From Stentor roeselii (Eukaryota > Ciliophora > Heterotrichea > Heterotrichida > Stentoridae), in contig RSEH01000088.1 in the NCBI GenBank assembly GCA_006503475.1, positions 96,382-160,381 on the forward strand: a DNA stretch of 64,000 bases, in the 5' to 3' direction. The notes beneath the pieces were generated by a model. The model saw only the letters and a program-made list of their open reading frames with translations, had not been told where the DNA came from and searched no databases. Below are positions 1-64,000 of this stretch, piece after piece. The stretch's first letter is position 1; each line of letters begins with the position of its first letter. Made by a program: the position numbers and the translations under genes.

Positions 1-900
1 TTTATTATTGAAAAAGCGAAAAATGAAGAGACTGATCCTCTTAGTTGCTTAATTGTTTCAAAGCCTTTAGACCCGGATTGTATTCATGGGAATATTTCTA
101 TTAGCTTGTTGAAAGTTTCAGGGTTTAAACCTGGAAGTAGATGCATTCGGTTTAAGGTGAAAGATGTTTTAGAGTATCTTACACCGGAGTTTAATGAAAA
201 TGTACTTACTTATAATTTTAAGTGCGATTATTTGATTGAAAATAAAACACCAGCGAGTCTTCCTACAACTATTGAGGTGGACTTATTGAATAAAAATGTT
301 AATGAAGGGCATGCATCGTTTAACTGGACCAAGTCAAACGCAATAACCACAGATTTCTCATTCAAACAAAAGCTAGACATAAAAACCTCTCTAGGCCAAG
401 CAAGAGGCGCGATTCACATCCAAGTATCCTGGTCTCCTATTTTCGCAAAGTTCTACAGTTCATCCGATCTAGATCGTTTGTCTCGTTTAAAGCAAAAAGC
501 AGAGACCTACCAAGCCCAGCTTGAGCGAAAGCACAAGATGACCCGTTCAATAACCCACAAGATGACAAACGAGTTACCAGCCCTTTCAGAAGAAGACTCT
601 TACTTAGAAGAGGCAAAAGAAGAGGTACTTCGCAGCCAAGAAGGTAAAAGAATGAGTTTCCTGATAAACGTATGCAAAAAGTCAATAGAAACTCTTCATT
701 CCCCAAAGCCCGGAATGCCCCGTTCACCATCAAGCAAGGCGAGTATGGACTTCCTATCAATCCGTTCAGTGAAAAGAAATTTCACAACATTAGAAAGACC
801 GAAAACGCCTTCAGCAACAAAACTTAAAGTCGACTCTCCAACACCTTCTCGTATGTTAACACCTACGAAGTCAATGCGAAAGAACTCGATCCAGTTTTAA
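1..900 (+). CDS. C2-like domain protein, 5' partial
   Basis: The frame is open from base 1, so the gene begins left of the window and only its last 299 codons are present (TAA stop). The first 130 visible residues alternate short hydrophobic strands with loops (GNISISLLKVSGFKPG, then RGAIHIQVSW), the pattern of a C2 or C2-like beta sandwich. No calcium-binding aspartate cluster can be confirmed from this fragment. The rest is basic, Ser/Thr/Pro-rich and probably disordered (RSPSSKAS, KTPSATK, TPTKSMRK), with a short helical stretch around DRLSRLKQKAETYQAQLERK. Membrane or scaffold binding is an inference from the fold. The next gene starts only 11 nt after the stop, on the same strand. The C2 call is tentative; that it is a real coding region is secure. 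Confidence 0.6.
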   Translation, partial: FIIEKAKNEETDPLSCLIVSKPLDPDCIHGNISISLLKVSGFKPGSRCIRFKVKDVLEYLTPEFNENVLTYNFKCDYLIENKTPASLPTTIEVDLLNKNVNEGHASFNWTKSNAITTDFSFKQKLDIKTSLGQARGAIHIQVSWSPIFAKFYSSSDLDRLSRLKQKAETYQAQLERKHKMTRSITHKMTNELPALSEEDSYLEEAKEEVLRSQEGKRMSFLINVCKKSIETLHSPKPGMPRSPSSKASMDFLSIRSVKRNFTTLERPKTPSATKLKVDSPTPSRMLTPTKSMRKNSIQF

Positions 901-911
901 CCATAATAAAT

Positions 912-2563: not shown

Positions 2564-5249
2564 TTAATTTAAAGGTGAATTTTCAAAAATCTTCTTCAAG
2601 GGATCATCCTGAGAGTAAAAATTAACAGTATTAATCATCAGCAACTGAATCTTCCGATGCATTTCTCGACTAACAAGTCCTTCCTGAACTTCCATGAACC
2701 TGTTAATCCATTCCGCTAAAATTTCATTTAACTTATTGAGTTCTTCTTGTTTTCTAGCAAGTTCAACTTGACAATTTTTCCTACTTTGAACATAAAAAGT
2801 CTTCCAAAGTTCTTTTTCCCTTTCAAATCTTTTCACGACTTCATCAAGTGCCTTTAAGCTTTTATCCTTGATACTTTTTTTCCTTCTTTCATTCTCAAGT
2901 TCAATTTTAAGTTGTCGATTCGCAGTTTCCAAGACTTCCACCTGAACCTCAATACTTTTAAACTTATTCGTCAGTCCTTCCGCATCAATTTCAAAAGACG
3001 GTCCTAAAAACGACAAAGAAGCAAAACTTTTTTCAATTTGGTCACTTTTGAAAGACCTTGCATAGAACGACCTAAGCATTTTCGCTTTTTTTTCAGTCGG
3101 TGAAGGAATATCGACGATTTTCAAGGGTTTTTTTACGAACTTGTAAAGTTCGTCAGTGATTTTTTCACAATTTTGAAGAAAAATTTTATTTTGCTTGTTT
3201 TGCAAGGTTTTTATCTGGAGTTTCGAGTTTAACAAGTTGATTTTCCAAGAGAGGGACTCGAGTTTCCAAGCCAGGTTTGAGTTAAACATGGAAGCTTCAA
3301 CGATTTGAGCTTTTAACTGGTAAATGATCAGGTCTTTGCTGAGAGCTTTGTTGCTTTCAAGGGCTTGTTCTAAGGTTTGGCCGTAAGTTGAGCAGAACGA
3401 CATTTTTTCAGGGTTTAAAGAAAGTTCTTGAATAGAAAATTCAAGTTCTGATGAACTTTCCAAGATTTCTTCGGATTCTGTTGTTTTTTTCGATGGGATT
3501 ATAGTGTCAATGAACTCTACTCGTGTTATGTCACGACTTGCTTGGAGATCGCTCAGGTGACTGAGTTTTTTTTCTAGTTCTTGAAGGGAATTTACCAGAA
3601 ATTTCAGAGATTTTGTTAAGTTTTCGTTCTTTTTTATTAGAAGAAGATGCTCGCTTGAGTCTTTGTGGATCAGGTTCAGGGTTTTGTGGTATAAAGAATA
3701 GTATTCAAGGGATTTTTTTTCGAGTTTTGAGATTTTTTCTTGGGATTTTTTCAGTTTTTTTAAAAGTTTTTTGTTTTCTGATTGAAGTTCTTCGTTTTTT
3801 TCCTCGATTTCGAAAAGTTTTTTTTTTGTTTCGAAGTCTTCTTGAGTTTCTTTCAGGTCCTCGTTTCCTTTGTCTGGAGTGAAAAAACTGGAATTTATGA
3901 ATTCTTGTTCGAAAATGAAGTTTTTTTTATCGAATGTTGGAAGGTCTATTGATATTGGAGTGTTTCGAGTTGATCCTAATGCGATTGGACTTTCGACTGT
4001 GATTCGGTTCTTTTTACTGGAACTTGAACTTAGAGTTTTTTGGGGTCTTCGGCCAACATATGAATGTGAGACAGCTCGAGTTTCGACCAATGTAGATTTT
4101 TCTCTTAAACTTTGAAGTTCAGCCTTTGCCTGGAAAAGTTCAGTTCTCAAAGCTTCAATAATTTTTAAATATGATTCAGGATTTTCCTTCAAATTTACCT
4201 TAACTCGATTTTTGATTAGCTTGGCCCGGAGTGCAAAGCTCAAACTATTAATAGTCTCTTCCTTCGAGTGGCATCCCGGACTACAATTAACAACAAGGCT
4301 AGTTTTAAAATTCCCTCCAAGTGAATCTTGCAAGATGCGAGTTAACTTCGAGTCCCTATAAGGAACATGATCCTTTCCAGCCACAAGAGCCGAGATGACA
4401 TTTCCAAGAGCAGACAACGACAAGTTGATTTTTTTTGTTTCTTCAAGAGTCTGTCCAGTGACTCCACTATTTCTAACTTTTTCACTTCCAGCAAGATCAA
4501 CTAAATTAAGCAGTCCTCTTTTTTCAGTCCCATGAGGATTAGTCTGAATAATTTCAGCAGTCATCAAAAGATGTGACCTTGAACTCGACGAATTCATTCT
4601 CGTCGAAGCAACAGTCCTTAAGTCCTGCCCCATGACGACAACTTCCAAGAATTCCTTCGGACAAGTGGGACAAACAACGGCGAGGCCACTGACGAAAACT
4701 CCTTTCATGAGAGTTTGTTTTATTTTCAACTGGTTTGAAGCCGGGTTGAGTAAATCGACGAGTTTATCTTTATAAACCTCTAACATCGAAAGTTTCACAA
4801 GACATTCTGAGTCCTCTTCACTGTCCTGGTCAAGAGAAAAGAAAAGGTTTGAAGCTAATCTTGGAACAATTCCTTGTTTTTGGTCATTATTCAACTCTCC
4901 TAAAATCGTGTAAGTCTTCCCTGAGCCTGTCTGGCCATAAGCCAAGATAGTTCCATTAAACCCGCATAAAACATCGGCAAGGATCGGCCTGGCTATTGTA
5001 TCAAAAACCTCGTCTTGTGAAGCACTTCCTGAAAAAACACTGTCGAAGGTGAAGGACTGAAGATCTTCTTCACTTCCGAAGCCGACTACTTTTGAAGAGA
5101 TCGGGTGGAAAAGTGACACTTGTCCTGAAGTCTGAACTATTTTTTACTTTTTCTTGCTCGGACATCGGTCGGAACCGAGCGAAAACTTTAATGTTTGACT
5201 CTTGTCGTTGAAGAAGGTCGGGTTTTTGATTTGAAAGTTTTTGAGACAT
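2564..5249 (-). CDS. Kinesin-1-like motor protein with long coiled coil
   Basis: 889 residues in two exons joined across a 16-nt intron at 5132-5147. Translation starts at the ATG at 5249 (MSQKLSNQKPDLLQRQ), followed by the first motor strand NIKVFARFRPMSEQEK just before the intron. The N-terminal motor (about 1-360) has P-loop [12 protein letters not shown], switch I NSSSSRSH, switch II LVDLAGSEK, and VPYRDSKLTRILQDSLGGN, closest to conventional kinesin heavy chain. IKNRVKVNLKENPESYLK corresponds to the kinesin-1 neck region. The remainder is coiled coil with serine-rich breaks. Family knowledge predicts plus-end-directed microtubule transport. No recognisable kinesin light chain or cargo motif was identified in the tail, so the subfamily beyond 'kinesin-1-like' is inference. 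Confidence 0.88.
5132..5147 (-). other. 16-nt intron in kinesin-1-like gene
   Basis: Reads gtaaaaaatagttcag on the minus strand. Its removal joins MSEQEK to TSGQVSLFHP in frame; leaving it in shifts the frame of the motor domain. It is the only intron here that is not 15 nt. Confidence 0.85.
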
Positions 5250-5287
5250 TTATAAATTCATATGAAATTTGTTTAAACTAATTATTT

Positions 5288-6052: not shown

Positions 6053-6066
6053 CAATAATAACTCAA

Positions 6067-6880: not shown

Positions 6881-8596
6881 TTAAAAATTCACTTTACCCC
6901 GCAAACTAGAAAATCCTTGACGACTTACAAGATTAGCAATTTTCAAGTTTTTTCGAAAGACTTGAACTGATTCTCCAGATTGTTTCAAGAAACTACGAAA
7001 TGTATAAGAAAGGACTGACGGTGCTTGACCTTCTGGAGATTTAGTGAAAAAGACCTTGTTTTCTGAGATGTTATAAACAATTGGATAGACACTTTCAATG
7101 TTTTCGTTTAACTCTTCTATTTCAAAGACTCGGAAGATTTCTTCTGTTCGGCCTTCGATGATTTCTTGAACTGCTTCGAAGATTAATACTGCTTTTGAAT
7201 GACGGCCTCCTAGAAGTGCGAATTTTGATTGGGTCACTGGGAAGATCCCGCATCGGAGAAGTGGAAAGGAAAAAACTACTGAAAGACCTTCCCAACGGTC
7301 TTGGCTGAATGAGTACCTTTCAAGGGTTTTGCCTACGGATTCTTCTGGCTGGCCTCCTGCTACGTACATGAAGTTGTCACCTTGTAATAGGCAGGCTATT
7401 GGCTCGTATCGACCGTGGATCATACTTGAAAATGGACTCCAGGTGTTTGACTCTAAGTTGTATTTTTCACAGGTTGTGTAGGTGAAACGACCTCCTACTA
7501 CGTAGATGAAACCTTGACGGTATATCACTGCTGGACCGTCGCGACGATCTAACATGCTTTTTTTACGGTAGAGCTCTGAACGGTCTGGAAAGAACTGGTA
7601 CACGTCACCTCGAGCACCACCCGAGTCGGGATGTGTTCCTCCAACAACTAAAAAACTTCCATCAGGAAGATAAACCAATCTAGAGCCAAAGTTAAACCTC
7701 CACATTTTAGTTTCCTGAGTAATAAACTGCTGATAATTTTCAAGTCTAACCCTGGTCCACTTTTGATCATTCACATCATATTTCCAGATATTTTTGCTTC
7801 CCCACTCGATCCAAAACAAGACTTTTCCTTCTCCAAAATGTTCTTGTTTTTCATTTAATTTAAATTTATTCTTATTTGCATAGTTCTGCAGAATTTTATT
7901 GAGAGAAGTTCGGAAATCGTTATTTTCAGTGGGAATCAAAACGACACTGCAAAGAATTTGAATAATTGAGTCTATTCTTGTTCCGATGCTGAAAGAATAA
8001 GCTGCATTGGTTGTATGATGAATGCCTTGCAAGGCTAATTCATTTTTTTTTGCCTTTACTCTGAATATTGGAGTCCCGGGCATGATTTGCTTGCTTGTCG
8101 TGTAAGTAAAAAGATCTGTGTCTACGCCGATTATCTGGCAAATCGTCAAGCCTGAACCTGGGTACTTTATTTGACTTCCGTCTCTTAGCTTAAATTCTTG
8201 CCGAATGTCGATGAATTTTGAAGTGGTCAACTTTAAGGAGATCACTGTGAAGTTTAGTCCTCGGTTTGTGTAAAAAAAGGTACTTGGGTCGAATCGCACT
8301 TTTTGTGATGATGGGAAAACTGCGAAACAGTGGCCTGCTACTTCCTCATCAACAATAACCGAGTTACTCGTCATGGCAATATTCTCAGTGATCATAAACC
8401 CCACCCCATTAGGATTGCCAAAGTGAGAATTTAAAAACGAGAATCCAATTCCATAAATTTCAAAAACACATCCAACAATCGGCCCTTCTAAAAACCAGCC
8501 CGAATCAGCCCTAGGAGTCAAAGAAACTCCAAGTCCACATCTTCCACTTCCAACACTCTTAAAAGTTCTGGCACTAAAAGAGTGACTAGAGTTCAT
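6881..8596 (-). CDS. Degenerate trypsin-like domain fused to kelch propeller
   Basis: 571 residues. Residues about 20-215 follow the order of a trypsin-like (Trypsin_2/DegP-type) domain: GVGFMITENIAMTSNSVI where active proteases have GF.I...V.TN.HV., then LNFTVISLKL at the catalytic-Asp strand, then IMPGTPIFR at the GxSGxP loop. The catalytic His and Ser are therefore replaced (Asn and Thr/Pro context), so it is probably an inactive pseudoprotease. Residues about 255-540 are kelch blades (GSFLVVGGTHPDSGG, GFIYVVGGRFTYTTCEKY, NFMYVAGGQPEES, SKFALLGGRHSKA). No signal peptide is seen, so a cytosolic adaptor is likely. The ATG at 8596 is the first in frame. The fold assignment of the N-terminal half is inference from motif order. 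Confidence 0.7.
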   Translation of the reverse strand: MNSSHSFSARTFKSVGSGRCGLGVSLTPRADSGWFLEGPIVGCVFEIYGIGFSFLNSHFGNPNGVGFMITENIAMTSNSVIVDEEVAGHCFAVFPSSQKVRFDPSTFFYTNRGLNFTVISLKLTTSKFIDIRQEFKLRDGSQIKYPGSGLTICQIIGVDTDLFTYTTSKQIMPGTPIFRVKAKKNELALQGIHHTTNAAYSFSIGTRIDSIIQILCSVVLIPTENNDFRTSLNKILQNYANKNKFKLNEKQEHFGEGKVLFWIEWGSKNIWKYDVNDQKWTRVRLENYQQFITQETKMWRFNFGSRLVYLPDGSFLVVGGTHPDSGGARGDVYQFFPDRSELYRKKSMLDRRDGPAVIYRQGFIYVVGGRFTYTTCEKYNLESNTWSPFSSMIHGRYEPIACLLQGDNFMYVAGGQPEESVGKTLERYSFSQDRWEGLSVVFSFPLLRCGIFPVTQSKFALLGGRHSKAVLIFEAVQEIIEGRTEEIFRVFEIEELNENIESVYPIVYNISENKVFFTKSPEGQAPSVLSYTFRSFLKQSGESVQVFRKNLKIANLVSRQGFSSLRGKVNF

Positions 8597-8752: not shown

Positions 8753-11002
8753 ATGACATCATCAGATAGCTTTAGAGACTTTCACAAAATGACAATCCAA
8801 GAACGCATGGAGCTTCTGGCTTCCTTACACCCAGATTTAAACGGTTCTTATGTCCAAGGACTTGATCTTAAAACTGCTGACTTGATGGTCGAGAACTGTG
8901 TTGGAAAAATCGCGATCCCGGTTGGATTAGGACTCAACTTTATGGTCAATTCTAAGGAGTACCTAGTGCCAATGAGCACTGAAGAACCTTCTGTGATTGC
9001 AGCGGCATCTGCCGCTGCCAAATTAATCAAACGATTCGGAGGATTCAAGGCTCATAGCACTGACCCTATCATGATCGGGCAGATTCAGGTCCTTGATATC
9101 GATCCTAAAGTCTTCCATGGACTGATCTTAGAGCGTGAAAAAGAACTGATCACCAAGGCTAATACAAAATACTGTCCAAGAATGGTTAAAAGAGGAGGAG
9201 GTGTCGTTTCGTTACAGTTTTTAGAACTAAATTCAAAATCAGGAGTAGTCGAAATCAGCGTCAATGTCGGTGAAGCCATGGGAGCGAATATCGTGAACAC
9301 CATCTGTGAAGGACTTGCTCAGGACCTTCAACTGTTAGCTGAATGTCGCCTGGGTCTTAGAATTCTTTCAAATTACTGTCCAGACCGAAAAGCGATTTCA
9401 GAATTTCGAATTCCTGTAAAAGAACTGGCTTATAAGTCAATCCCAGGCGCTGAACTCGCAAAGCGCTTTATTGAAAGTTGGGAATTTGCAAAGTTTTCAG
9501 TGAATAGAGCTTGTACCCATAACAAAGGAATCTTAAATGGAGTCATTGCTGTTTGTTTGGCAACTGGACAAGACACAAGGGCCGTCGAGTCTGCAGCCCA
9601 CTCGTGGGCTGCCCAAAGTGGAAGGTATCAGCCTTTGAACTCTTATAAGATCGAATCGGGAATGCTTGTTGGAAGGATTGAACTACCGATTGCTATTGGA
9701 ACTGCTGGAGGAGCACTTAAAACTAATCCTGGGTATCAGGGATCTATGATGCTTCTTGGAAATCCTTCGTCGAATGAACTTGGACAGTTAATCGCCTCTG
9801 TTGGACTTGCTAGCAACTTTGCTGCTATCAGGGCTATGGTCTCTGAAGGGATTAATAAGGGACATATGGGACTTCATGCGAAGAATATCGCTGTTTCGGC
9901 TGGAGTTCCGAGCTCAATTGTTTCTGAGGTGGTGGAGTACATGAAACAACGCGGTGATATAAGCCAGAAGGCTGCGCTTGACTACATGTCAGCCCATCAC
10001 ATTCACACAATCTCAAGAAAAAGCTTTAAACAACAAGGAGCTTTGAACACCTTCCACATAAGCCTTCTAGACCAAAAGCCACCAGTTTCCTTTACCCTGG
10101 CTTTCACCTGCCCAAAGATAAGTGGAGTCCACGTTGACCTAAGAAAATCCTCCCGAAGTCAAATGGCAGTCAACCTTCACAAGTTATTCGTACGAAAAGA
10201 CTACCAATGGCTTGACTCCTTCGTTCGAATAATCGAAAAAGTCCGTTTCAAGCCTGAAAACCCAAGAAACAACCAAACTTTTCTACTAAAAATGAAACTT
10301 TTTGCCATCTGGATCAACGAAATCTCGATTCACCTCGTCAACTTGATGGGCAGCACATTTTGTGACAAGGTGTTCACTGAAGTCTTTGCAATGCGACGCG
10401 ACACTCTAGAAAAACTGACGCTAGACGTTGAAGAATACGTCGAGTTCGGGATTTATATGGCTTATGAGTTGTACCACGTTCTTAATTTCAACTTGGAGAA
10501 CTTTGACAACTCGCCCATTGAGAACTCAGCTGAATTGGCTCAAAGAATAAGAAAAGAAGTGCAAATGGTAGTTTTGTCAAACATCAAATCAATGAGCGTG
10601 TCTCCGAAAGACTATCCTTTGTTAGTCGAGTTGAGGAAGAAACAGATGAGCGCAACTTTGATGCTTTATTGTGATTGTCTTGGAGTAGATACTATTAATA
10701 TTCAGCTTTTAAACAACCTGCAGAAACTTGGAGATATTTTAGAGATTCTTAGCACTGCTCGAAGGGATTATATGAAAAGTTTGAATGGAGAAGCGGAACA
10801 TCCTAACATATACAAGGCTTGGAAGGAGCAGGAGATGTTTGAAGGGAGCTACTTTAGCTATTTTGAAAGACTTGTGAAGACCAAGTCTCAACAGTTGCCG
10901 CCTGACATGATTGAGCTTGTGCGTAAAACTGTCGCTTTTATGAATGGGTATTATAAAAAGTACCCACAGGACAGCCTGGACTTGAACTACCCTAAACTTT
11001 AA
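8753..11002 (+). CDS. Class II HMG-CoA reductase with unique C-terminal domain
   Basis: 749 residues. Residues 1-425 match class II (bacterial-type) HMG-CoA reductase, which interconverts HMG-CoA and mevalonate. All four catalytic positions are visible: Glu in TEEPSVIAAAS (about 77), Lys in THNKGILNG (about 255), Asp in TGQDTRAVES (about 272) and His in KGHMGLHAKN (about 373). There is no N-terminal membrane anchor, unlike class I enzymes of animals, fungi and plants, so it should be soluble. Class II enzymes are about 430 residues; here 320 mostly helical residues follow that I do not recognise. They are not thiolase (the Enterococcus MvaE fusion partner, which is also N-terminal). Lateral acquisition is a reasonable inference. 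It could work in mevalonate synthesis or degradation; cofactor preference cannot be read by eye. Confidence 0.9.
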   Translation: MTSSDSFRDFHKMTIQERMELLASLHPDLNGSYVQGLDLKTADLMVENCVGKIAIPVGLGLNFMVNSKEYLVPMSTEEPSVIAAASAAAKLIKRFGGFKAHSTDPIMIGQIQVLDIDPKVFHGLILEREKELITKANTKYCPRMVKRGGGVVSLQFLELNSKSGVVEISVNVGEAMGANIVNTICEGLAQDLQLLAECRLGLRILSNYCPDRKAISEFRIPVKELAYKSIPGAELAKRFIESWEFAKFSVNRACTHNKGILNGVIAVCLATGQDTRAVESAAHSWAAQSGRYQPLNSYKIESGMLVGRIELPIAIGTAGGALKTNPGYQGSMMLLGNPSSNELGQLIASVGLASNFAAIRAMVSEGINKGHMGLHAKNIAVSAGVPSSIVSEVVEYMKQRGDISQKAALDYMSAHHIHTISRKSFKQQGALNTFHISLLDQKPPVSFTLAFTCPKISGVHVDLRKSSRSQMAVNLHKLFVRKDYQWLDSFVRIIEKVRFKPENPRNNQTFLLKMKLFAIWINEISIHLVNLMGSTFCDKVFTEVFAMRRDTLEKLTLDVEEYVEFGIYMAYELYHVLNFNLENFDNSPIENSAELAQRIRKEVQMVVLSNIKSMSVSPKDYPLLVELRKKQMSATLMLYCDCLGVDTINIQLLNNLQKLGDILEILSTARRDYMKSLNGEAEHPNIYKAWKEQEMFEGSYFSYFERLVKTKSQQLPPDMIELVRKTVAFMNGYYKKYPQDSLDLNYPKL

Positions 11003-12259: not shown

Positions 12260-12534
12260 TTTATTTAGATTGGTGTAGGGAATTTTTCAATTGGTTTAAA
12301 TTTTCTTTTGGATTAGAGATGATTTTAGTATACTTTTAGGAGAAAATATTCGAGGATTGTACTGATATTCAAGTATTTAATAAATTTATGAATTAGTCTT
12401 TAAAGTTTTTAATGATTTCTTAATTTCCTATAATCTAATACAAATGAGGCCATAAGAATCACCAGGTATTTCGATAATCACTTTCAATAAAATCAAATAA
12501 CCTAATTTCAATTAAATTTAAACAATCTTAATGA

Positions 12535-17874: not shown

Positions 17875-18032
17875 AGATTTTAATAGTAAATAGGGTAAAA
17901 GCTTATTCGCATCAAAAGATATATAATCTTAACTTAGAATAGATTTTCATGAATAGTTTATTTTAACAAAAGGTTAATCTTAGTAATGTTAAGTTTATAA
18001 AATTGAAAGATTCAAATGAACAATTACAAAAA

Positions 18033-29256: not shown

Positions 29257-29438
29257 AAAAGATTTTAGTTAATAGAAGATTGTTTTAGGAATTTTATATT
29301 AATCTTTTTTTCTTGTTACAATTAAATAAATTCAGAGAGTTTAAGCTGAATTTTTTCAATCAAGCAGTTTTATATGAGATCAGGGAATAATTCAAAATAA
29401 AACACAATTTCTCCATTTAATGAATAATTCAGGCAACA

Positions 29439-52916: not shown

Positions 52917-54126
52917 TTTATTTGGTTAGGAGATGTGAAGGATGATGATTTTTTTTTGGGTTTTTAGGATTTTAGGGGGTTTTATGGTGATTGGTTGTAT
53001 TTTTATGGAAATTAGGGGATTTTTTTTATTTAAAGATATGATTTGTTATTAATGTTAAGAAAGTGAGTCAAATTTTTAAATTTTTATTAACTTTACAAAG
53101 TGACTTAAATAAGACTATTTGTTCAACCAAGTTAAAGTAGAAGTATCCAGAACTACAATTCCAATCACATATTTTATTGCTAAGAATTAATTATAACAAA
53201 AGTGCGTCATAGTAAAATTCATTAGTTATTTTAGAATATTATTATAATAAAGTATATTAAATATTCATTAATACTTTATTTTTATCTTTTATTCAATCAA
53301 TTTATCAAAAAATAATTATGCAGCAAATTTTAAAAATTGCATTACTTAACATATCTATTACTTAAAAAACTCAATACTCACTTCAGTTTGATATTATTTA
53401 TAAGTTTTATTATATAGAGTTGGATAATTCATAATTGAATACTTAAAAATTTTGGTTTTAGTTGATGATTTAGAGCTTTCTTGAGATAATTACAATTGTT
53501 TCATTGAAACAATAAAAATTTTAATATATTTTTAAATATTAAAAAATCTAAAATTAAAATTTGAACAAAAAAAATGATAATTTATGATCAACATTTTATT
53601 ATAATTCCTGATAAACAATCCTCATTATAAAAGATAGAATTTGATTTTATTATATTTTTTTTAAATTGGTTTTAATAAAAATGATAATTAAAAGCAGATC
53701 AAGTGATTTCAGATATGATACTTAAACAAATTAAGGTTAAATCTATATAAATTATCTTTTCAAATTTAAATAGTAATCTTTATTATAAATACGAAATTAA
53801 TTAATCATTAAATTATACTCAATATAATTAGATCTAATAATTAAAAATAATTAAATAAATTTATTTTACATTATGTTTTTCACTATTATGAATTTCTTAT
53901 TTAAAGCAGTATACAACGACCCAAGGATAAATTTTTCTCTTCTAATGCCTTTAAAACTAAATTTAATTTAAAAATATTATTCAATATAACTGAAATTGTC
54001 CATATTGACAAAGTGAAAAGTAAAATAAATTTCAATATTTTAAATAAAACCACTAAAAGTACTTCTCCAAACAATAACCATTCTACTAAACATTATAAGC
54101 CAAGAGCACTCCTAAACTAAATTAAT
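52917..54126. other. A+T-rich intergenic region
   Basis: 1.2 kb with very high A+T, between the start of kinesin-14 and the stop of the WD40-channel gene. Long A/T runs, no ORF and no RNA gene recognised. Confidence 0.6.
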
Positions 54127-57100
54127 CTAATTATTATCACTCTTACCAGCAAGTGCAGTTAGAATTTTCTTAACATCATCTCCAAGTTCTTCTACTTTTT
54201 TCCCAATATCATCAATTTTCCCCTGTAAACTTTTTATATCATTTCCACAATTTTCAATTTTTCCTTCAACTTTTTGATAAGTTTCTTGATTGAGTTTAGA
54301 AAAATTATTCAATTGATTTTTTATCTCATTTTCTTGTTTTTCGACAACTAAACTGAGGTCTTTAATCTGTTTATCCAATTTTTCTATTTTTTCATCATTT
54401 TCTTCAGAGCTATCATCAACAGAATTATAAGTCATGACCTGAAAATAACTTAAAATCGGATTTCGATCAACCCAAAACATCAATTTTTGAATTTCAAGTA
54501 CAACTGATATTCTTTCAGTATAATCAATAATTTCTCTATCAGTTTGGAAGTTAGCAAAAGATTCACTAAGAATAGAAATAAGAAGGTTGAACATTAAAAT
54601 CACATTAATAACCGTTGCTAAGATATAAGCAAATGTTTCAAAAGACGGTGCAAACTCATCCTTTGCCTCAAAAGTCCCAAAGTTAAGTAAATAAGAATCC
54701 ATCCACAACGACCGAAATTCGAAATTTTTTTCTTTTCTTGAAACTTCGAACATGACTCCAAAAGTAATGATCGAATAAGTCAAAATCACTAAAAAGTAAA
54801 GCATGTCGCTTATTGCTCGAATTATCAGTTTTACGTAATAACGAGTACCTGAAAATAGTCGAAAACCTGTCAGTCCTCGAGTGAAGTTTATTAAAGCCAC
54901 AACCCATTCGAGGTTGTTGTAGTCGACTTCTGGGGTTTGAATGCGAAGGACTATCCATAGAATTGTTGTTGAGAGTCTCAGGATGTCGATGTAGTTCCAG
55001 AAGTCTTTTAAGTAATTTAGTTTTTCTTCTAAAAATTGAATCACTTCCCAGAGGAAAAGCCAGAAGTTCACAAAGAGGAAAATGTAGAGAATGTATGATG
55101 AGGTTATGTCTGCTTGGGAGAAGAGGATTACTAGTAGTATTAGGTTGATGAATATCAGGAAGGTATACCCAGAAGTCCAGAAAATTAACTCATCCCAATG
55201 TTTTCTGACCACAAACTTAACAAAAGGAGTATTAAAAATCTGCCGATTCGAACATTCACTGATTGACTTCAAAAATTCAATAGTTGCAGTTGACCCAGGG
55301 TTAAATGGTATTTTAAAAGGAGTGTAATTAATGACAACTGGAATTTTTTCATCATCATCTGAAGTGCTTGGATTGAAATCTTGTGCAACGGGCATGAAAT
55401 TGTCAGAATAAAAAAAATGAGGCAAATTTTTCATCTTTTCGAATTGGACAGGACTTTTGATAAAGAATTGACCTATTAATAAATGGAGGATCTTAGAGGA
55501 GTTGCTGATTATTACTGGTAAATCATTGCTTATCGCGGAAAATGAAGTTGTTAGCCTTGAAGAATCTGATTGATTTGGTAAGTCTATTAAAAACCTCAAA
55601 ACAGTATCTACACAACCTTGATTCTGTCGCTGAATTCCATAAAATAAAGGAGACTTTCCAAAAAAATCAGCTGTTAAGTTCAAGTTTTCATCATTCATTC
55701 TTTCGATACTCTGAGCATCCCCTTTATAGCACAGAATATGCAATACAGAATAAGAGAATCTGCTAAATAAGATCTGATTTGTTTCTAGTTTCAGATTTAC
55801 AAAAGCATTTCCAGCAATACTATCAATTAGATTGTAGAATAAAATCAAATTTTGATAGTATGGGTCGAAAGTTTCAGATATTCCGATTTGATTTAATCTG
55901 ACTACTTCATTATTTTTTTTCTTATCGATTGATTCGCAATGACCATATTTGTAATTAAGTAAAATTTTTTCATCTTCTGTCTTAATAACAACATTATATT
56001 TCTGACTGGTAGTTTTCATAGAATCTTGATCAATCAAATCATTCAATCTCCAAATTTTTAAAGCTCTATCCTTAGCTGCACTGATTAAGAAAGAATTAGC
56101 AAAAACAGCTAAATCTTGAAAAGGTTTTTCAGAGCTATCAAGTGAATGTTCAACAACTCTTTTTTTCAAGTCCCAAATATTAATAACACAGTCAGACCCT
56201 GCACTAATTATTTTAGTCTTATCTTCTGTTAACGCTAAAGAATTAACAGAACCTTCATGACCATTTAATGTAAAATCTTCTCTTTTTTTCTGAATACTCC
56301 AAACTTTTATAAGAGAATCTTGACCTCCTGATATGAAACTATTTTGATTTAATATGGCCAAACTCAAAACACCTTCAGTGTGACCTGAAAAAATTGTTGG
56401 ATTCGGCTTGATTATGTTGGAATCTTGGTTTTTATCGGAAAGGTCCCAAAGTTTTATCACGTTTTCTTGGGATGAGCTCAGAAGTTTTAACTCTGCCCCT
56501 GGAAGTAATTTTAAACAGTTTATGCAAGACTTTGAAATTTCATATTTGATTATCTCGACTTTTTTGGTGAGAGATGAGATTTTAACGTTACCATTATCAT
56601 GACCTGTCAATACCCGATCATTATCAGGCAAAATAACTAATGACTTGATCGGTAATTTCAAGGGAATCGATAATTTAAAGGAATAATCATGAGTTGAATG
56701 AACTCTTAAATTTTCATCTAGAGAACCAGAGACCAGCCATTGTTTTTCACTACATATCCCAAGACAAGTTACGGTTTTAATATGTCCTAAAATACAGGCA
56801 AGTTCTTTCTTTTCCTTGAAGTTAAATACATTAATAGTGCTAGAATCAGATCCTGTAAATACCTTTTCACCTCGATCATCAATGAGAATGCACATAATGA
56901 CTCCAGATGTTGGTCTGAGACATTTTTTAGAACTGTTTTCACTCCTCAAATCCCAGGAAATAATCACCTTGTCGAGTGAAGAACTATAAAGAGTATTTCC
57001 ATGACTGGATAAACAAAGATTTGTGATTTTATCAATATGGGTTTTTTCTAAAGATTTTGGGTTTTTCATATCAGGTAATGAATATTCGTGAATATCACCA

Positions 57101-60100
57101 GAGTTATTCCCTATAAAAACTGATTTTTCATCTTTTGATAAGCAAACAGTGCTAGCCTCATCTTTCAATTCAGTTAAATCATTTGCTTTTATTTCTTTTT
57201 TTTCACCAAACTCAATTGTACAAAGTTTAACTTTTTTATTGTCAGATATCGAAATTAACTGATCTGAATTTGATAAAATTAAGAGAAATGATACAGAATC
57301 ATTTTGCTTTGTTGATATTATTTTGGACTTGCTTTCTATGTCCCATTTATTGATGAAGTAGTCTTTTGAACAAGAAAACAAGAAATTCTCTTCATGTGAA
57401 AATTTTAAGTCATTTATTTCTTTCGTATGTCCTAATAAAGTTATTGTTTTCGGGGATTTGTTTATTTTTTCTGATAAGAAAGACTCTGAAAAACGCCAGA
57501 TGCTTATTGAAAAGTCTTTCATTGCTGATGCTAGGAATAGGTTATGATTGGATAATACTATTGGACTTGTGCTGTTTTTACTTTCAGGAATTTCAATTGT
57601 TTCCTTGTTTTTTTGATTAATTGCTCCTACTAAGGTTATTGACGAGTTGGTTGCAGCTGTTACTAAAAATTTTGAATCTTTGGAGTAGAGAAGACCTGTT
57701 ATCGGTTCCTCTCCATGTATATTAATTGTATCTAAAAACTTTGAAGTTGCGAAATCATAAACCCTGATAGCTCCCTTATCATACCCAGTCGCCAAATACT
57801 TGGAATCCCCAGATAAAACTAAATGAGTAGGAGTATCAGTCCTCCATCTAAAAGAATAAAATTCTTTCTTTTCTTTTAAAGGCCAAGTTTTAATGATTTT
57901 ATCATCAGATATCGAAAACAGAACTCGATTAAAAACCTGCAAAAATGAGATTTTTTCAGAATGACCCTCTAATTTACACATAAAATCTCGTGAAATAGTT
58001 GAATAGACTCCGATAAACCCAGTTGAAGACCCTGCAAATAAGAAATTTTCATCTTCTGATAAAGCAAGTGCTGAGATTTCTGGCTGTTCGTTTAGTATTT
58101 TTAATTGACTTTGGTCTTCTATCTTCCAGAACCTCACTGTTCCATAGGATGACCCGCTGGCTAAAAATTGTCCTTCTGAGTAAAGTATTATTTTGGATGT
58201 ACTGTCATAACCATTTGAGAATAAAACTGGAAGGTCATTTGATTCTAGTTTCCAGAATGCAATGTCATCTCCAGCTACACAAAAAACATGAGTGTTACTT
58301 AATTTTACGTCTTTCACATATGAATATGGGTTATTATATGTATGGCTTTGATTTGTTTTGAGTTCACCAGTTACAACTACTCCATCAGAACATCCAGTTG
58401 CATAAATTCCGTTAAGACAGTCAATATAATCAACCCGCCCACTATGATTAAAGCAATTATTTATCAATTTTTTTTCAGTAGTCGAATAAACTGCAATAGC
58501 TCCATTTTCCATTCCAATAACAATAAGTTCCTCATCATACATAAAGACGCTGGTGATCTCTTCACAGTATCCATATATTAAAAGTTCTTGGCTTTTAGTA
58601 TTCATATCCCACATCTTGCAGCAATTTTGTGAAACTGAAACAAAATAATTTTCAAAATGATCCAAATAATGAATATCGTCACCATGAGCATTAATTGAAC
58701 TTATCTCTTTTTCATCATTTATATTCCAGAAGACTATTCGGCCATCAACTCCAAAAATCAAGGTGCTATCATCGAAAAGTTCTAAAGAAGTAAAGTAAAA
58801 ATCAATTGATTCTGATATTTTTTTAGGTGATTTTTCTGATAAGCTGATTTTGTAAATATCTCTCTCATCAGTCATGATTACAAGAAATTCTTCGTTTTGG
58901 GAGAGTAACATGAATTCTATGGAAGATTGAAGATCGGAGTTTGAATAAAGAATTTGTTTATTAGGAAGGCTCCAGAAAATAAATTTTCCATTTTCATGTC
59001 CTGATATTAACATTGAATCATCAGATTTGAGAATCAGTGATTTGATCAAGCCTTCATTTCTATCCGAAAAAGAATCAATTAGTTGTAAGTTAACTGGATC
59101 GATTTGATTTATTTCTGTCGAATTTGTATAGTAAAGGAATTTATCATCTGATGAAAGTTTAATTATAGGATCGTTTCCTTCAAATTGATATTTCTCTTTT
59201 ATTCTTTCTTTTGTTGATAAGTCATACTTATACAAGTAAGATTCACCAGCTGCGTAAAGATATTTCGATTCTTCACTAGAGGCAAAGGAAAGCAACATTT
59301 CTTCAGCTTTCAACTCACTACTGATGGCATTTTCATCCAAATCGAACAAGGTCAGTTTGAATCTTGTCTTATCCGCGTTACTATTTCTATCACTTTTACT
59401 TTTCTTAGATGATTCATGATCATCTGATGCTCTATCTTCCAATTCTTTATCTTCTGAATTACTATCATGTTTTGAACTTTTTTCATCGTTTTCTCCAATT
59501 TGTGAATCATTTTCTCCATAGTTGATTTGATCTTCATCATCATCACTTTGTCCATACTGATCAGAATAAGAGTAATTTGAATCAAAGTCATAGTCGTATT
59601 CATAATCTTCTATCATTTCACTCTCTTCTTCTTGATCTCCACTCTCTAAAACAATGATTAAATATTTACCGTCTTTAGTTAAAAATGAATTCTGAACCTC
59701 AAAGTTTTTAGGATTATATCGATGAACTTGTCTGTTTTCATTGATTTTAAAGACATTGACCCTGTCTTGGTCATCAATTGCGACAAGTGTCCCTATCTTC
59801 TTATTAATATTCATAAATTTAGTATTTTCAGGTACTTTTAATGAACATTTCGTATCTCTCACTTGTTCCTTTTGAATAAATTTAATAGTTCTATCATTTG
59901 AGCATGTAATGAAGTACTTGTAATCATGAGTGACTAAAATTTCATTGATAGTATCATGATGATGCAAAAATACATTTTCTTGAAGATCTTTCATTGTTTG
60001 ATCTTTCGATTCTACATCTTTTTCTTTTGAATTTAGAAGAATAATTTTTTTGGACTGGCAAGCACAGATCACCATTTGTCCTTTGTTGGTATACGCTACA

Positions 60101-60918
60101 TGAGTGAAAATTTCTTGATTATTTTCTATTCTTATAAGTTTTTTACTAGTTATATTGAAAAAAAAGATGTTGTTATTTGATCCTATTACCATCTGAGTGC
60201 CGCTTGGATTGACTGCTAAACAATTCACTGTCTCATCAATGCTGGTTAACTCCTCTAATTCACATTTGATTATCTGGCATCTCAACACTTTACCATTTTT
60301 GCATCCAATATAAAGCCAGTCTAAAACTAATTTTATTGAAGTAGCTTCAAGTTCTTCTCCTAATTTCACATCAAAATCAAAGTTTATCGGAAATTTCTCC
60401 GCACTAGCAAAATCATTTCCAGAAGCTGAAATCAATAAAGACCATCTTTTGATATGTCCTCCTTCATGAAGAGAAAACAAGTAAGAATTAGAATCTGACA
60501 CAATCTTTAAAATTTTAGAATCATTTTCTTTTTTGATAAAAAATTTATTTTTCGAGTCAACATAATAAAAGTTTCCAGATTCGGCCGCAGCGATGACTGA
60601 GTATTTTTCAGAAATGAAGCAAATTGACTTCAAGAATTCATTCGGAGTTTCAGAGATTACGTTTTTAGTCCATATTTCTTCTCGGTTTATCAAGTCCCAA
60701 AATTTGACATCGCCGGCAGCAGAGCAGCTTACGAGGTGGCTGTTGTCGATTGACATGGAAATTGATGTGACTGGATCAGTGTGCCCGAGAAGTAAAGAAC
60801 ATGCTCGATTGAGCTCAGACTCTAAGATTTTTTCATATTTTATGGTCTTAACTACTGGGATCCCAACACTTTGATCCTTGTCTAAAAGTTTAGAAAATAA
60901 GTCTTCTTGCTCTACCAT
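54127..60918 (-). CDS. WD40-repeat/ion channel fusion protein
   Basis: 2263 residues in one open frame. Residues about 30-1690 are dozens of WD40 units, enough for several propellers (GHTDPVTSISMSIDNSHLVSCSAAGDVKFWD-type; GHEGSVNSLALTEDK, then SAGSDCVINIWDLKKR). An acidic Ser/Asp/Tyr-rich insert lies at about 426-513 (DYEYDYDFDSNYSYSDQY). Residues about 1719-1786 look like degenerate ankyrin repeats (SVLHILCYKGDAQSIE). A six-helix channel of TRP/polycystin type follows at about 1899-2123, with a pore region near YLLNFGTFEAKDEF and a last helix NVILMFNLLISILSESF. A coiled coil (about 2166-2239) may drive tetramer assembly. It is probably a cation channel whose cytosolic propellers scaffold or sense partners; ion selectivity cannot be read. 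No intron is needed. Confidence 0.9.
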   Translation of the reverse strand: MVEQEDLFSKLLDKDQSVGIPVVKTIKYEKILESELNRACSLLLGHTDPVTSISMSIDNSHLVSCSAAGDVKFWDLINREEIWTKNVISETPNEFLKSICFISEKYSVIAAAESGNFYYVDSKNKFFIKKENDSKILKIVSDSNSYLFSLHEGGHIKRWSLLISASGNDFASAEKFPINFDFDVKLGEELEATSIKLVLDWLYIGCKNGKVLRCQIIKCELEELTSIDETVNCLAVNPSGTQMVIGSNNNIFFFNITSKKLIRIENNQEIFTHVAYTNKGQMVICACQSKKIILLNSKEKDVESKDQTMKDLQENVFLHHHDTINEILVTHDYKYFITCSNDRTIKFIQKEQVRDTKCSLKVPENTKFMNINKKIGTLVAIDDQDRVNVFKINENRQVHRYNPKNFEVQNSFLTKDGKYLIIVLESGDQEEESEMIEDYEYDYDFDSNYSYSDQYGQSDDDEDQINYGENDSQIGENDEKSSKHDSNSEDKELEDRASDDHESSKKSKSDRNSNADKTRFKLTLFDLDENAISSELKAEEMLLSFASSEESKYLYAAGESYLYKYDLSTKERIKEKYQFEGNDPIIKLSSDDKFLYYTNSTEINQIDPVNLQLIDSFSDRNEGLIKSLILKSDDSMLISGHENGKFIFWSLPNKQILYSNSDLQSSIEFMLLSQNEEFLVIMTDERDIYKISLSEKSPKKISESIDFYFTSLELFDDSTLIFGVDGRIVFWNINDEKEISSINAHGDDIHYLDHFENYFVSVSQNCCKMWDMNTKSQELLIYGYCEEITSVFMYDEELIVIGMENGAIAVYSTTEKKLINNCFNHSGRVDYIDCLNGIYATGCSDGVVVTGELKTNQSHTYNNPYSYVKDVKLSNTHVFCVAGDDIAFWKLESNDLPVLFSNGYDSTSKIILYSEGQFLASGSSYGTVRFWKIEDQSQLKILNEQPEISALALSEDENFLFAGSSTGFIGVYSTISRDFMCKLEGHSEKISFLQVFNRVLFSISDDKIIKTWPLKEKKEFYSFRWRTDTPTHLVLSGDSKYLATGYDKGAIRVYDFATSKFLDTINIHGEEPITGLLYSKDSKFLVTAATNSSITLVGAINQKNKETIEIPESKNSTSPIVLSNHNLFLASAMKDFSISIWRFSESFLSEKINKSPKTITLLGHTKEINDLKFSHEENFLFSCSKDYFINKWDIESKSKIISTKQNDSVSFLLILSNSDQLISISDNKKVKLCTIEFGEKKEIKANDLTELKDEASTVCLSKDEKSVFIGNNSGDIHEYSLPDMKNPKSLEKTHIDKITNLCLSSHGNTLYSSSLDKVIISWDLRSENSSKKCLRPTSGVIMCILIDDRGEKVFTGSDSSTINVFNFKEKKELACILGHIKTVTCLGICSEKQWLVSGSLDENLRVHSTHDYSFKLSIPLKLPIKSLVILPDNDRVLTGHDNGNVKISSLTKKVEIIKYEISKSCINCLKLLPGAELKLLSSSQENVIKLWDLSDKNQDSNIIKPNPTIFSGHTEGVLSLAILNQNSFISGGQDSLIKVWSIQKKREDFTLNGHEGSVNSLALTEDKTKIISAGSDCVINIWDLKKRVVEHSLDSSEKPFQDLAVFANSFLISAAKDRALKIWRLNDLIDQDSMKTTSQKYNVVIKTEDEKILLNYKYGHCESIDKKKNNEVVRLNQIGISETFDPYYQNLILFYNLIDSIAGNAFVNLKLETNQILFSRFSYSVLHILCYKGDAQSIERMNDENLNLTADFFGKSPLFYGIQRQNQGCVDTVLRFLIDLPNQSDSSRLTTSFSAISNDLPVIISNSSKILHLLIGQFFIKSPVQFEKMKNLPHFFYSDNFMPVAQDFNPSTSDDDEKIPVVINYTPFKIPFNPGSTATIEFLKSISECSNRQIFNTPFVKFVVRKHWDELIFWTSGYTFLIFINLILLVILFSQADITSSYILYIFLFVNFWLFLWEVIQFLEEKLNYLKDFWNYIDILRLSTTILWIVLRIQTPEVDYNNLEWVVALINFTRGLTGFRLFSGTRYYVKLIIRAISDMLYFLVILTYSIITFGVMFEVSRKEKNFEFRSLWMDSYLLNFGTFEAKDEFAPSFETFAYILATVINVILMFNLLISILSESFANFQTDREIIDYTERISVVLEIQKLMFWVDRNPILSYFQVMTYNSVDDSSEENDEKIEKLDKQIKDLSLVVEKQENEIKNQLNNFSKLNQETYQKVEGKIENCGNDIKSLQGKIDDIGKKVEELGDDVKKILTALAGKSDNN

Positions 60919-63548
60919 TTTATAATTAACTCTCCAGTGCCATTTAGAATTACTCTAGATATTAAAAATGAATAAATTAACTCTCCAGGATTATTTTTAT
61001 AAATATTTCCTAAAGTCATTTGAATAATAACTCAACAAACATCAAATGACTCTAGACTAAATATTATAAATTAAATCGACTGGTTAGTGAATCCTTGTTT
61101 TTTTTTCGAGGAATTTGATTAAAAATTCGTAGCAGATCAGATTTTTATATAAATAAACCAAAAAAATATCAATCAATTTAAAATTGTTTGTTTAGTTTAG
61201 AACACCACGTCAAATTCTTAATGACTTTAAAGATTATCAAATTTTAGGATTTTTTCATTTTAACTTTTCAAAGAGAGACAAGGTCTTATTCTGTTGATTA
61301 TTAGAACTTCGACGCCCTGCTATCATTTCATCCTAAAAACTCTGAAGACAAAAATATCAAACTTTTTTTCCGGGAACTTAGAAAAAACTAGCAGGGAGAG
61401 CTAATAAGAATAAAGTAATTAAGTCGACTTATGGAAACATATCAAAATTAAATCTTCTATTCAGCAAAAATACAAGCTTAAAAGGAACAAGTCCATCGTC
61501 TACTCGAAAAGCTTCAGTAGAAAATGAATAAATAGTCTACAAAATAATAATTTGGAGTATTAACAAGTAAAACCTTCTCAATTGTTTAGGCTACAAGCCT
61601 AGCAAGCTAAAATTTTTTAAGTTATTAACCCTGCTAAGTTTTCCTGGACTTAACTTCAAATTCTTTTATAATTCAAAAAACTTAAAAAAAAGAGTAGATG
61701 TTTTATAGGTTTTTATCAAGCTGAAGACAAATGCTAGTGACGACATACTTGAACGCGATCAAAACCTTTAAATCGTGAGAAAAAATACTTATAGTAAAGA
61801 AAAATATGGATATCAATATATTACTCTGTACTGGAAGGTTATGTTAATTTCTTGAATAAGGTCTAATGTAACTATGATTGCAATGATATATGTCTTAGGG
61901 ATATTAAATAAAATCAAATTCATTGAAATCACTTAATTAGATATTATTGCACTGAAAATCGATTTTCAAGCCAAATCAATCAAATCTTCCATTACATAAT
62001 ACAAATTATTCAATCTCACCAATAAATATTCGAAATAACTTACTAAGAATCCTTATTCCGATAATCTTACAGATAATAGTCATATATGCAGAAGATAACC
62101 ACTTCTTTACTTTTTATACAATTAAGAATCGCATCAAAAATATCTTACTAAAAAGTCATACAAAAGATGCATTTCTAATCATTCCTATAACAAATGTATC
62201 TTTTAATCGGCCTTCTTGAAATTTTCACATATTTCTTCTACTGCATGCTTAAAAAAATATTTAGGAACTATAAATATTCGAGTAACTGATCATGATATTA
62301 AATATCTCAAGTCCTCTACCTTGAATGCAATTAGGTTATTTTTCGAAAATTAAGAGTTTGAAGATTGTTTCAAAACCTACAAGAAAAAAAAATTTAGTAA
62401 TAGAGTTAAAATAGATATTGTAATCAACAAGAAATAAATATAGCCCTTCAGGAATAAAGAATAAATCATTTTATTTTAACTATTAAAGTAGTTATAATTT
62501 TATAATATTATTGATTTAACCATTGGTTTTACTATAATTTGTAGTAGTTGGGCTTCAGCTCGTAGTAACATTGCTATACTTTTTACCCCAATTATTCAAA
62601 GGTAACTGCACAAGGCAACTTTTAGTTGCATTTAAAGTCTTTGGTTTATTCTTTATATTTAAAATGTCCTTCAAATTCGTATAGAGATCGATGACTATCG
62701 CTTGAATAAGATTCAAGCTTATAAGGTCATCAATAAATCGAAAGTAGCATTAAATTTCAAAGATATTTTTATTTGTTAATTGTAAATGTTTTTATATTTG
62801 ATTTTTTGATAGCAGAATATGGATGATAAGATGAGGAATACGTTAAAAATTGTAAAAAATTAAAAATTGTGACTAGACTTTAAAAACATCAAGAATCATC
62901 AATAAAGAGTGCAGATGATACACTAAATTCATTAAAATTATAAAATTTTATTAATATTATGATTACTTCTAACTTGCTTCGAAGAAACTTTTAATCAACT
63001 CTAATTCTTGAGAAGGTTATAGGTGGCGTTTGTTACAGTTTACATTCTATTAGCTCCTCTTCATTGATAAAAAATTATTCCTATATAATTTTTATTATCC
63101 CTTGCGATTTCTGGACAAAAGATTAGAAACTTGCGATAAACTGCAAGTATCAAATCTAGGCTTGTAAAGAAAAAAATGATTAAACCACCTTAAAGCATCT
63201 TTATAATTTTTATAGGAGTTTATTTCATGATTATTGTACAGAATTTACTCTTTAATTAGAATTTCAAATACTTTTAATCTCATCCTCTTTATTTAGAATT
63301 TTAATCATGACCTATTTACTCTTTGGATACTCTTAAGATTCGAGTTGAACATTACATTTAAGCAATAATTTTTTTTCAATCATTAAACTTTTGTTACAAT
63401 AATTTATTATGTGAGTTGATTGCTGTTTTTTAAGTATAAATGATTTAGTTACCAAATAATCAGATTAATCCTACTAGCGAATTTATCAAGATTTAATTCA
63501 ATATCAAAATTTTATTTTAGAATCTAAAAAATTCTTCAAATATGATCC
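60919..63548. other. Gene-poor region
   Basis: 2.6 kb without a supported ORF on either strand, the longest such stretch here. It is A+T-rich with many short runs. A local patch at about 61310-61640 has higher G+C and several copies of CCTGCTA/TAGCAGG in both orientations (near 61314, 61390 and 61629), so a structured non-coding RNA or element remnant is possible but not shown. No tRNA arms recognised. Confidence 0.5.
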
Positions 63549-64000
63549 CTAATCTAAATTAACAACATCTAAATCTTCCCTTTCCTTATTGAAAATTTCC
63601 GGATTTTCATTATGTTGTTTTTCACCTTCAACAATATCATTTCTATTCTTTTCACCTAAATCTTCCTTTTTTACCTGATTATCTATTTTCTGAATATTTC
63701 TCTCATTAAATTCAGAGTTAATCTCACTGCTAGCAAAATCGATATTTCCATCTCGATAACTAGTAACTTTAAATGTTTTTCCGCTCATTATAGAGGCAAT
63801 ACTTTTATGTTTTGTCAAGTGAGTGGATTTCAAGATTTTTATCTTTTTCCAAATTTTCTCAGAAAGGTTTTCAATAATCACGAATACTTGAGTTAAGAGA
63901 GATACTGCTAGGAAAGAAAGCAACAAGTAACTTGAAATTTCAGCTTTGAACAAAAACTTCAAAATAATCAAAGCGTAAAAAAAGATAAGGCTCAATTCAG
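63549..64000 (-). CDS. Membrane protein, C-terminal part, 5' partial
   Basis: The frame stays open to the window edge, so the gene begins beyond base 64000; 150 codons are visible. The first 45 residues are two hydrophobic segments (LIFFYALIILKFLF and YLLLSFLAVSLLTQVFVII), followed by a basic then acidic hydrophilic tail (KIWKKIKILKSTHLTKHKS, then GEKQHNENPEIFNKERED). This is the last one or two transmembrane segments and cytosolic tail of an integral membrane protein. The family cannot be told from this part. Confidence 0.6.
   Translation of the reverse strand, partial: ELSLIFFYALIILKFLFKAEISSYLLLSFLAVSLLTQVFVIIENLSEKIWKKIKILKSTHLTKHKSIASIMSGKTFKVTSYRDGNIDFASSEINSEFNERNIQKIDNQVKKEDLGEKNRNDIVEGEKQHNENPEIFNKEREDLDVVNLD

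Follow-up and report, generated by a model that had tools for sequence, protein, structure and literature searches.

We analysed a 64-kb stretch of the ciliate Stentor roeselii (contig RSEH01000088.1, positions 96,382 to 160,381, hereafter the window) and found that its strand composition follows a real and strong sawtooth: along the + strand the sequence drifts towards G+T and then switches to C+A within tens of bases, again and again. We read the switches as sites of recurrent, sharply fixed double-strand breaks in the germline, the account that we favour while rating it slightly below an even chance. All results rest on this one window and on published papers.

The window has a GC content of 35%, and 81% of it is covered by coding sequence (CDS) models in the standard code. 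These models are coding-score segments from stop-to-stop frames (34 segments) and are not curated genes. A single 15-nt GT..AG intron puts the frame back in eight of the nine pairs of adjacent models on the same strand; introns of 15-16 nt are mentioned for Stentor coeruleus in PMC9505925, and the 15-nt introns together with the standard code thus fit a Stentor-like ciliate genome. Because coding sequence adds noise, the step test was repeated on 29,048 silent sites, namely synonymous third positions and positions outside the CDS models, after subtraction of amino-acid box means and gene-strand means. Steps were located with a matched filter (150 bp as the main setting, with 50, 100 and 400 bp also run) and residuals permuted among the used sites served as shuffled control. 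The 39 switches with z ≥ 3.5, among which the positions near 18770, 20405, 26700 and 29350 were placed by hand between two estimates, were used for the shape, gap, amplitude and paralogue-run analyses. Removal of eight weaker ones left the 31 used for composition, motif, TA and amino-acid tests, and removal of four more left the 27 used for step-width and gene-orientation tests.

At z ≥ 3.5 the 150-bp filter returned 39 peaks from G+T to C+A in the 64 kb, and 31 peaks from C+A to G+T as well. The asymmetry between the two directions lies in sharpness and strength. Above z = 4, the 50-bp filter gave 14 switches from G+T to C+A versus 1 in the reverse direction, the 100-bp filter 24 versus 8 and the 150-bp filter 29 versus 19; above z = 6, the counts were 10 versus 0 at 150 bp and 6 versus 4 at 400 bp. 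Shuffled residuals yielded on average 0.08-0.24 peaks at z > 4 (0.24 with the 50-bp filter). In a held-out test run over 40 splits, one half of the sites served to find the top 20 steps of each direction and the other half to measure them. At 20-40 bp downward steps measured 0.19 and upward steps 0.07; at 60-80 bp the values were 0.34 and 0.10, and upward steps attained 0.25 only by 150-200 bp. When step width was fitted to 27 switches, the narrowest of 11 widths was best, 20 bp being preferred over 60 bp by 20 units of log-likelihood (lnL); centres were left free, which favours sharp fits, and the held-out test agrees with the result. The excess of sharp G+T to C+A steps over the reverse is the outcome, within the window, of a check of polarity and sharpness that had been set beforehand.

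The asymmetry is also visible in all bases. Keto skew was autocorrelated across about 300 bp, and the skewness of step sizes at L=160 (0.488) was exceeded by none of 1000 phase-randomised surrogates; at L=60 it was not beyond the surrogates (p=0.62). The G-C component carried this all-base asymmetry, the T-A component having none at L≥100 (p 0.11-0.98), while L=60 gave a weak one with the sign reversed (p=0.016). On 4-fold sites alone, the G-C and T-A components were each skewed. A 50-kb control from E. coli had no asymmetry (skewness z at most 1.5) and an autocorrelation of at most 0.062. An earlier note on this DNA, made by reading the sequence, had listed 18 flips together with hand counts of G+T per 60 bases (40/22, 40/22 and 38/22). 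All six counts were exact, and every one of the 18 flips had a silent-site peak from G+T to C+A at most 45 bp away, the peaks being called without the list. In raw G+T, compared over 250 bp to the left and right, z exceeded 2 at 17 of the 18, with only 1.5 at the flip listed at 7635.

The flanks have a common shape and length. Folded profiles at 4-fold sites and a shared-shape fit bear out the strand symmetry that the earlier note had claimed for the sawtooth. At 4-fold sites, C and A are depleted left of switches on the + strand and right of them on the - strand: on the G+T strand, A, C, G and T stood at 0.21, 0.05, 0.24 and 0.50 at 50-100 bp from the switch and at 0.37, 0.14, 0.13 and 0.36 at 600-800 bp. 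The jump is antisymmetric and abrupt in GC skew and TA skew alike, GC skew at 4-fold sites passing from about +0.6 to -0.6. Between 0-250 and 500-1500 bp, the shifts in ln odds on the G+T strand were equal for T/C (0.91 ± 0.05) and G/A (0.95 ± 0.05), and GC content stayed nearly flat across switches, with an even component of 0.007 ± 0.015 at 0-25 bp and +0.02 at 300-500 bp. We detected no CpG- or TC-specific context in the base shifts, by a test that is weak and confounded with codons. The shape shared by 39 switches has a plateau of 0.28-0.33 over about the first 200 bp, stands at 0.20-0.23 between there and 400 bp, and has all but gone by about 500 bp, with 0.08 in the 400-500 bp bin and 0.01 in the 500-600 bp bin; the 150-bp detection filter somewhat inflates amplitudes in the first ~150 bp. 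This shape accounts for 51% of the variance in 150-bp bins, sampling noise for 22%. Past 600 bp the fit dipped just below zero (-0.04 to -0.06), and -0.12 was reached at 1200-1500 bp in the three longest gaps, perhaps owing to undetected switches.

Tract length is independent of neighbouring switches. Gaps between switches averaged 1662 bp (median 1398, coefficient of variation 0.55), or ~0.6 switches per kb. When the 38 gaps were sorted into five length classes, the signal was near zero past 500 bp in each, and in the nine gaps longer than 2100 bp it was zero already at 250-350 bp. A fixed linear decay over 600 bp gained 555.7 lnL units across the 38 gaps; of eight shapes scaled to the gap, the best gained 411.3. 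Symmetry forces a zero near 480 bp in the 13 shortest gaps, and the length test is carried by the long gaps: for the 17 gaps of at least 1600 bp the gains were 213.8 for fixed decay, 170.0 for gap-scaled decay and 125.4 for a plain linear sawtooth, and for the 9 gaps of at least 2100 bp they were 80.9 for fixed and 69.2 for gap-scaled decay. The longest run without a G+T to C+A peak of z ≥ 3.5 is at 57693-63451 (5.8 kb), with smaller swings inside, for example at 58.1-58.5 kb.

The switches do not depend on the genes in which they lie. Their sign was the same and their size similar in 15 switches within + genes, 7 within - genes and 5 in intergenic DNA (set of 27); a skew coupled to transcription of the genes would follow modelled gene orientation, and this one does not. 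The earlier note had argued from + and - genes that transcription does not explain the flips; the same polarity was indeed seen in both, but as proof this is weaker than stated, because a switch that is symmetric between strands has G+T before C+A whichever way the gene runs. Gene-orientation independence itself is borne out by intergenic DNA: switches between convergent genes (2332, 44460) and between divergent ones (50019) exclude a cause acting in mRNA sense. After amino-acid correction the signal was strongest at 4-fold and 2-fold third positions, and it was present in intergenic DNA. It extends to codon positions 1 and 2, where GC skew within 200 bp was 0.13-0.29 and 0.06-0.18, respectively.

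The persistence of the switches could be followed in five tandem kelch genes with ephrin-receptor-like repeats (K1 to K5, at 14488-32750), each made of at least two model segments, several of which are linked by 15-nt introns. In nine of the ten pairs these paralogues are near saturation, with 4-fold identities of 0.34-0.46 versus 0.30-0.32 for random pairs. Their switches lie in different homologous columns (about 80-100 in K2 and K4, 289 in K3 and 370 in K5), and a weak step in K1 (z 3.6) falls within about 25 codons of the K3 switch. Profile correlations among the nine pairs ranged from -0.60 to 0.46, only K3/K5 (0.46) lying above the shift control. The recent pair K2/K4 has a silent-site profile common to both copies (r=0.84), part of which may be due to conversion. 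Judged from these alignments, switch sites appear to outlast a recent duplication but mostly to move before silent sites saturate.

We propose that at each switch the germline (micronuclear) chromosome would be broken repeatedly on both strands at a fixed site, the breaks being most likely programmed, meiotic or post-meiotic. Resection of 5' ends would expose the + strand on the left, and the - strand on the right, as single-stranded 3' tails, and over evolutionary time the tail strand would lose C and A and gain T and G. Exposed C and A might be damaged or miscopied, A.C and G.T heteroduplex mismatches might be resolved differently, or both. The step would then report the break position to tens of bases and the fade of the skew the tail length, roughly 250-500 nt, and every sexual cycle would pass the mark on from germline to somatic sequence. 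The fixed length of the flanks fits a resection tract better than a replicon. The mutagenesis at human meiotic breaks described by Hinch et al. 2023 (PMC7615360) amounts, as we interpret it, to a loss of C and A from the + strand on the left; the polarity and the C- and A-directed classes of changes match those seen here, which supports recurrent breaks as the cause. Among ciliates, Tetrahymena is described as having Spo11-dependent meiotic breaks (PMC6294514) and post-meiotic breaks (PMC5482572).

Breaks with 3' tails had already been suggested in the earlier note; such breaks predict the polarity and the fixed-length decay found here, and were retained, but deamination as the sole agent was not. 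Simple deamination of C predicts a shift in T/C without one in G/A, and a lower GC content; since the rises in T/C and G/A are equal, with almost no change in GC, some process directed at A, or a bias between G.T and A.C mismatches, is needed besides. The equal effects on C and A and the flat GC also fit a differing resolution of A.C and G.T when homologues pair. In mouse cells, mismatches in single-strand annealing after breaks are reported to be resolved in a strand-directed way that depends little on the type of mismatch (PMC9001825). Errors of repair synthesis at breaks are not favoured: by our reasoning, G.T misincorporation on refilled or extended strands would give the opposite polarity. 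The sequence composition is compatible with either mutation bias or conversion bias. A bolder version, which we consider unlikely though worth stating, is that the soma would carry a map, to tens of bases, of nearly every recurrent germline break site, with resection length written in the skew fade, through a GC-neutral repair bias that favours keto bases, in which A.C and G.T on the invading strand would be resolved unequally. Such a bias would be the strand-directed counterpart of GC-biased gene conversion, and we found no earlier description of it.

K2 and K4 are the copies of a local duplication on the + strand (18069-21271 and 25981-29186, 81.4% identical) and have one switch in common. 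Their divergence is very uneven, from 1% to 43% per 100 bp. It is 9-17% to the left of 18269, 1-2% at 18869-19068 and 5-10% in the rest of 18269-19368, then 19% in the 100 bp after 19368, 21-43% at 19469-20868 and 14-24% beyond, which suggests that the 5' part was recently converted. The common switch (18734-18814) is near the middle of the low-divergence stretch, with 7-9% divergence there, and a conversion tract would explain this position. This pair, the sole informative one, thus diverges more slowly near its switch, so that, if breaks are involved, conversion bias may outweigh mutation. This is a single case, and with two switches in 3.2 kb we estimate the chance of a coincidence within ~100 bp or less at ~1/8. 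Three of the 25 listed paralogue pairs fall inside this duplication; the remaining 22, most of them near saturation, gave no evident conversion islands, their best 12-codon runs of silent identity lying 50-1175 bp from a switch.

Several observations weigh against recurrent breaks. The strict minimum of K2/K4 divergence is offset from the switch, about 100-300 bp to its right, and slow divergence near a switch argues against a plain mutation hotspot. A single event should couple the two flanks, though left and right amplitudes were uncorrelated across the 39 switches (r=-0.01; standard deviations 0.17 and 0.14 versus about 0.09 from sampling); saturation could mask a correlation. Recombination hotspots often show a GC peak, and none was present at the switches (0.007 ± 0.015 at 0-25 bp). 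A switch every ~1.4 kb would make a very dense set of breaks, and equal effects on C and A are unlike spontaneous deamination. With skew present within tens of bases, breaks would need to be confined to unusually narrow sites, for which no motif offers an explanation: among 4- to 7-mers within 30 bp of 31 switches we found no genuine motif. The sole word to pass Bonferroni correction, CCGATCG (0.006), was rejected as an artefact, arising from one place in each of K2 and K4 (18783 and 26695) with both strands counted.

The main rival, next after breaks, is a dense set of replication origins, each switch being a precise and very frequent bidirectional start of germline replication with the leading strand rich in A+C and the lagging strand in G+T, as in yeasts. 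The polarity is that of S. cerevisiae, equal shifts in T/C and G/A might be expected from G.T misincorporation on one nascent strand, and polymerase usage is described as special near origins (PMC9645720). We nevertheless think it improbable. The skew of a replicon should vanish at its midpoint, whereas the tracts seen here keep one length and leave the middle of most long gaps flat. The passage of 4-fold GC skew from +0.6 to -0.6 compares with a jump of 9% given for yeast origins (PMC3459929), and the switches (mean spacing 1662, median 1398 bp) are packed ~10 times more densely than origins in the Tetrahymena macronucleus, for which one per 15 kb is indicated (PMC5182062). The switches lack any AT-rich or motif signature. 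Marsolier-Kergoat judged replication an unlikely cause of the C. albicans centromere jump, in the account given in PMC3459929, because efficient origins would be needed about 6 kb away on both sides; this argument applies more strongly to the present switches.

Excision of germline-limited segments (internal eliminated sequences, IESs) is a distinctly weaker candidate: each switch would be a junction where the soma has lost the central part of a smooth germline gradient. It would explain sharpness without a motif, and IES junctions fit in density: the heterotrich Blepharisma is reported to have 39,799 IESs in a somatic genome of 41 Mb (PMC9942856). About 70% of those are intragenic, at a gene coverage of 77%, compared here with 22 of 31 switches inside CDS models covering 81% (binomial 0.12). 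The usual TA junction was not clearly enriched, at 0.42 within 2 bp versus 0.36 ± 0.08 in resampled controls and, for an exact T|A at the boundary, 0.29 versus 0.22 ± 0.06, both being weak tests. Excision by itself also leaves the polarity of the gradients unexplained.

Non-coding transcription or R-loops in the germline, starting or ending at switches, could impose a transcription-coupled strand bias. The ciliate germline nucleus makes non-coding transcripts that are unrelated to gene orientation, and transcription-associated bias enriches G+T on the coding strand. The transcripts would, however, have to converge on a sharp common end, when sharp points are usually divergent starts; we hold this for a long shot. 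Less likely still are forks converging at fixed termination points, with a leading strand rich in G+T as in bacteria and humans. Their polarity fits, but the objections of fixed length and density raised for origins apply equally, and PMC3459929 is cited here for the absence of termination jumps in human and for zones of 2-10 kb in yeast. The fixed fork-collision points offered as an alternative in the earlier note fit worse than breaks, because the decay length is not greater where the next switch is farther off. That protein composition or codon choice along genes creates the pattern is scarcely credible, and as a full explanation it is refuted by the corrected third-position signal, the intergenic signal and near-saturated paralogues mostly without common switch positions, even if the ratio of residues with GT codons to residues with CA codons was 1.23 upstream versus 0.90 downstream (Fisher p=3e-4, residues treated as independent). 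This amino-acid shift looks like a consequence of the process, which extends into proteins.

The refined switches, which carry no strand, are given here as 2-lnL intervals with their steps; refinement covered 32 switches and the weakest (20391, z 2.9) is omitted. Within + genes they lie at 265-324 (0.75), at 1383-1450 in a CDC73-like gene (Pfam; 0.93), at 9973-10005 in an HMG-CoA reductase-like gene (0.89), at 33395-33426 (0.82) and 34528-34554 (1.13) in a 5-oxoprolinase-like gene, and at 47631-47702 in an aminotransferase (0.78). The + kelch paralogues have switches at 18734-18814 in K2 (0.73; interval 18734-18785, filter peak 18814), 23172-23212 in K3 (1.16), 26646-26725 in K4, aligned with that of K2 (0.78), and 31029-31057 in K5 (0.94). 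Five more, at 37513-37541 (0.75), 38516-38548 (0.98), 39608-39625 (0.89), 41776-41788 (1.02) and 42919-42943 (0.90), are inside a + gene of 2236 codons (37413-44120) without a confident Pfam domain, its only match being Med9, below the cut-off of that family. Within - genes, switches were placed at 4053-4129 (0.67) and 52086-52103 (1.05) in kinesins, at 7529-7605 (0.76) and 8336-8350 (0.89) in a kelch gene, at 49064-49085 (0.98), and at 55154-55165 (1.09) and 57685-57722 (0.91) in a WD40 gene that forms a single frame of 2267 codons on the - strand (54130-60930) and is very rich in WD40 repeats. Convergent intergenic DNA has switches at 2294-2349 (0.58) and 44413-44466 (0.40), and divergent intergenic DNA at 49994-50025 (0.74, z 7.4). 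The others are at 12417-12484 between two - genes (0.58), at 32752-32760 outside CDS models between + genes (0.88), at 53024-53068 upstream of a - kinesin (0.59), and outside CDS models at 29315-29392 (0.58), 30029-30083 (0.45) and 46418-46449 (0.56). The window also holds a polyubiquitin-like gene on the - strand (12541-13512) with three matched ubiquitin stretches. Searches of public contigs returned no relatives of the window kinesin (genome and viral contigs) or of the polyubiquitin (viral contigs).

Should recurrent breaks be the cause, sequence alone would map germline breaks and resection lengths in organisms where meiosis is hard to study; the persistence of break sites would become readable, through a recent duplication but mostly not until silent sites saturate, and a repair bias with effects on codons, and even on amino acids, would be revealed. 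Should origins be the cause, this would be the densest precise set of origins known to us. Either way, codon-usage and phylogenetic work on such genomes must allow for the switches, and the pattern deserves a genome-wide test.

Strand-composition jumps are known but weak or rare, while those described here combine strength with a spacing of about 1.5 kb and flanks of fixed length; among the matches listed in our search of the open-access literature, we found no earlier description of a keto sawtooth of this kind. The subtelomeric skews reported for Halteria (PMC7858049) and Nyctotherus (PMC2633312) likewise violate strand parity in the ciliate soma, but are described as purine or GC skews tied to chromosome ends or to the coding strand, whereas the present sawtooth is a keto skew inside genes. 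At the centromeres of C. albicans, the accounts in PMC2924309 and PMC3459929 give a jump that is also very large (74%) and abrupt, with a return in ~3 kb; they describe one per chromosome, longer and with raised GC, and a GC skew passing from negative to positive, opposite to the ~0.6 nearly GC-neutral switches per kb found here. Yeast origin jumps and mammalian S-jumps share the sharp jump and gradual return, as outlined in PMC3459929 and PMC9645720, and the A+C-rich leading strand given for yeast origins has the polarity seen here (PMC3459929). The GC-skew jump quoted there is 9% with a return over ~20 kb, compared with about 120% at 4-fold sites and ~0.5 kb in the window, and, unlike replication jumps, the return length does not grow with spacing. 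Human meiotic hotspots (PMC7615360) differ in that the signal comes from rare variants pooled over 25,440 hotspots, with flanks that reach ~2 kb and a central ± 100 bp without asymmetry, whereas single sites in a reference sequence suffice here, with flanks of ~500 bp and asymmetry within tens of bases. Both systems are antisymmetric about a point, C- and A-directed on the strand of the 3' tail and confined to a limited tract.

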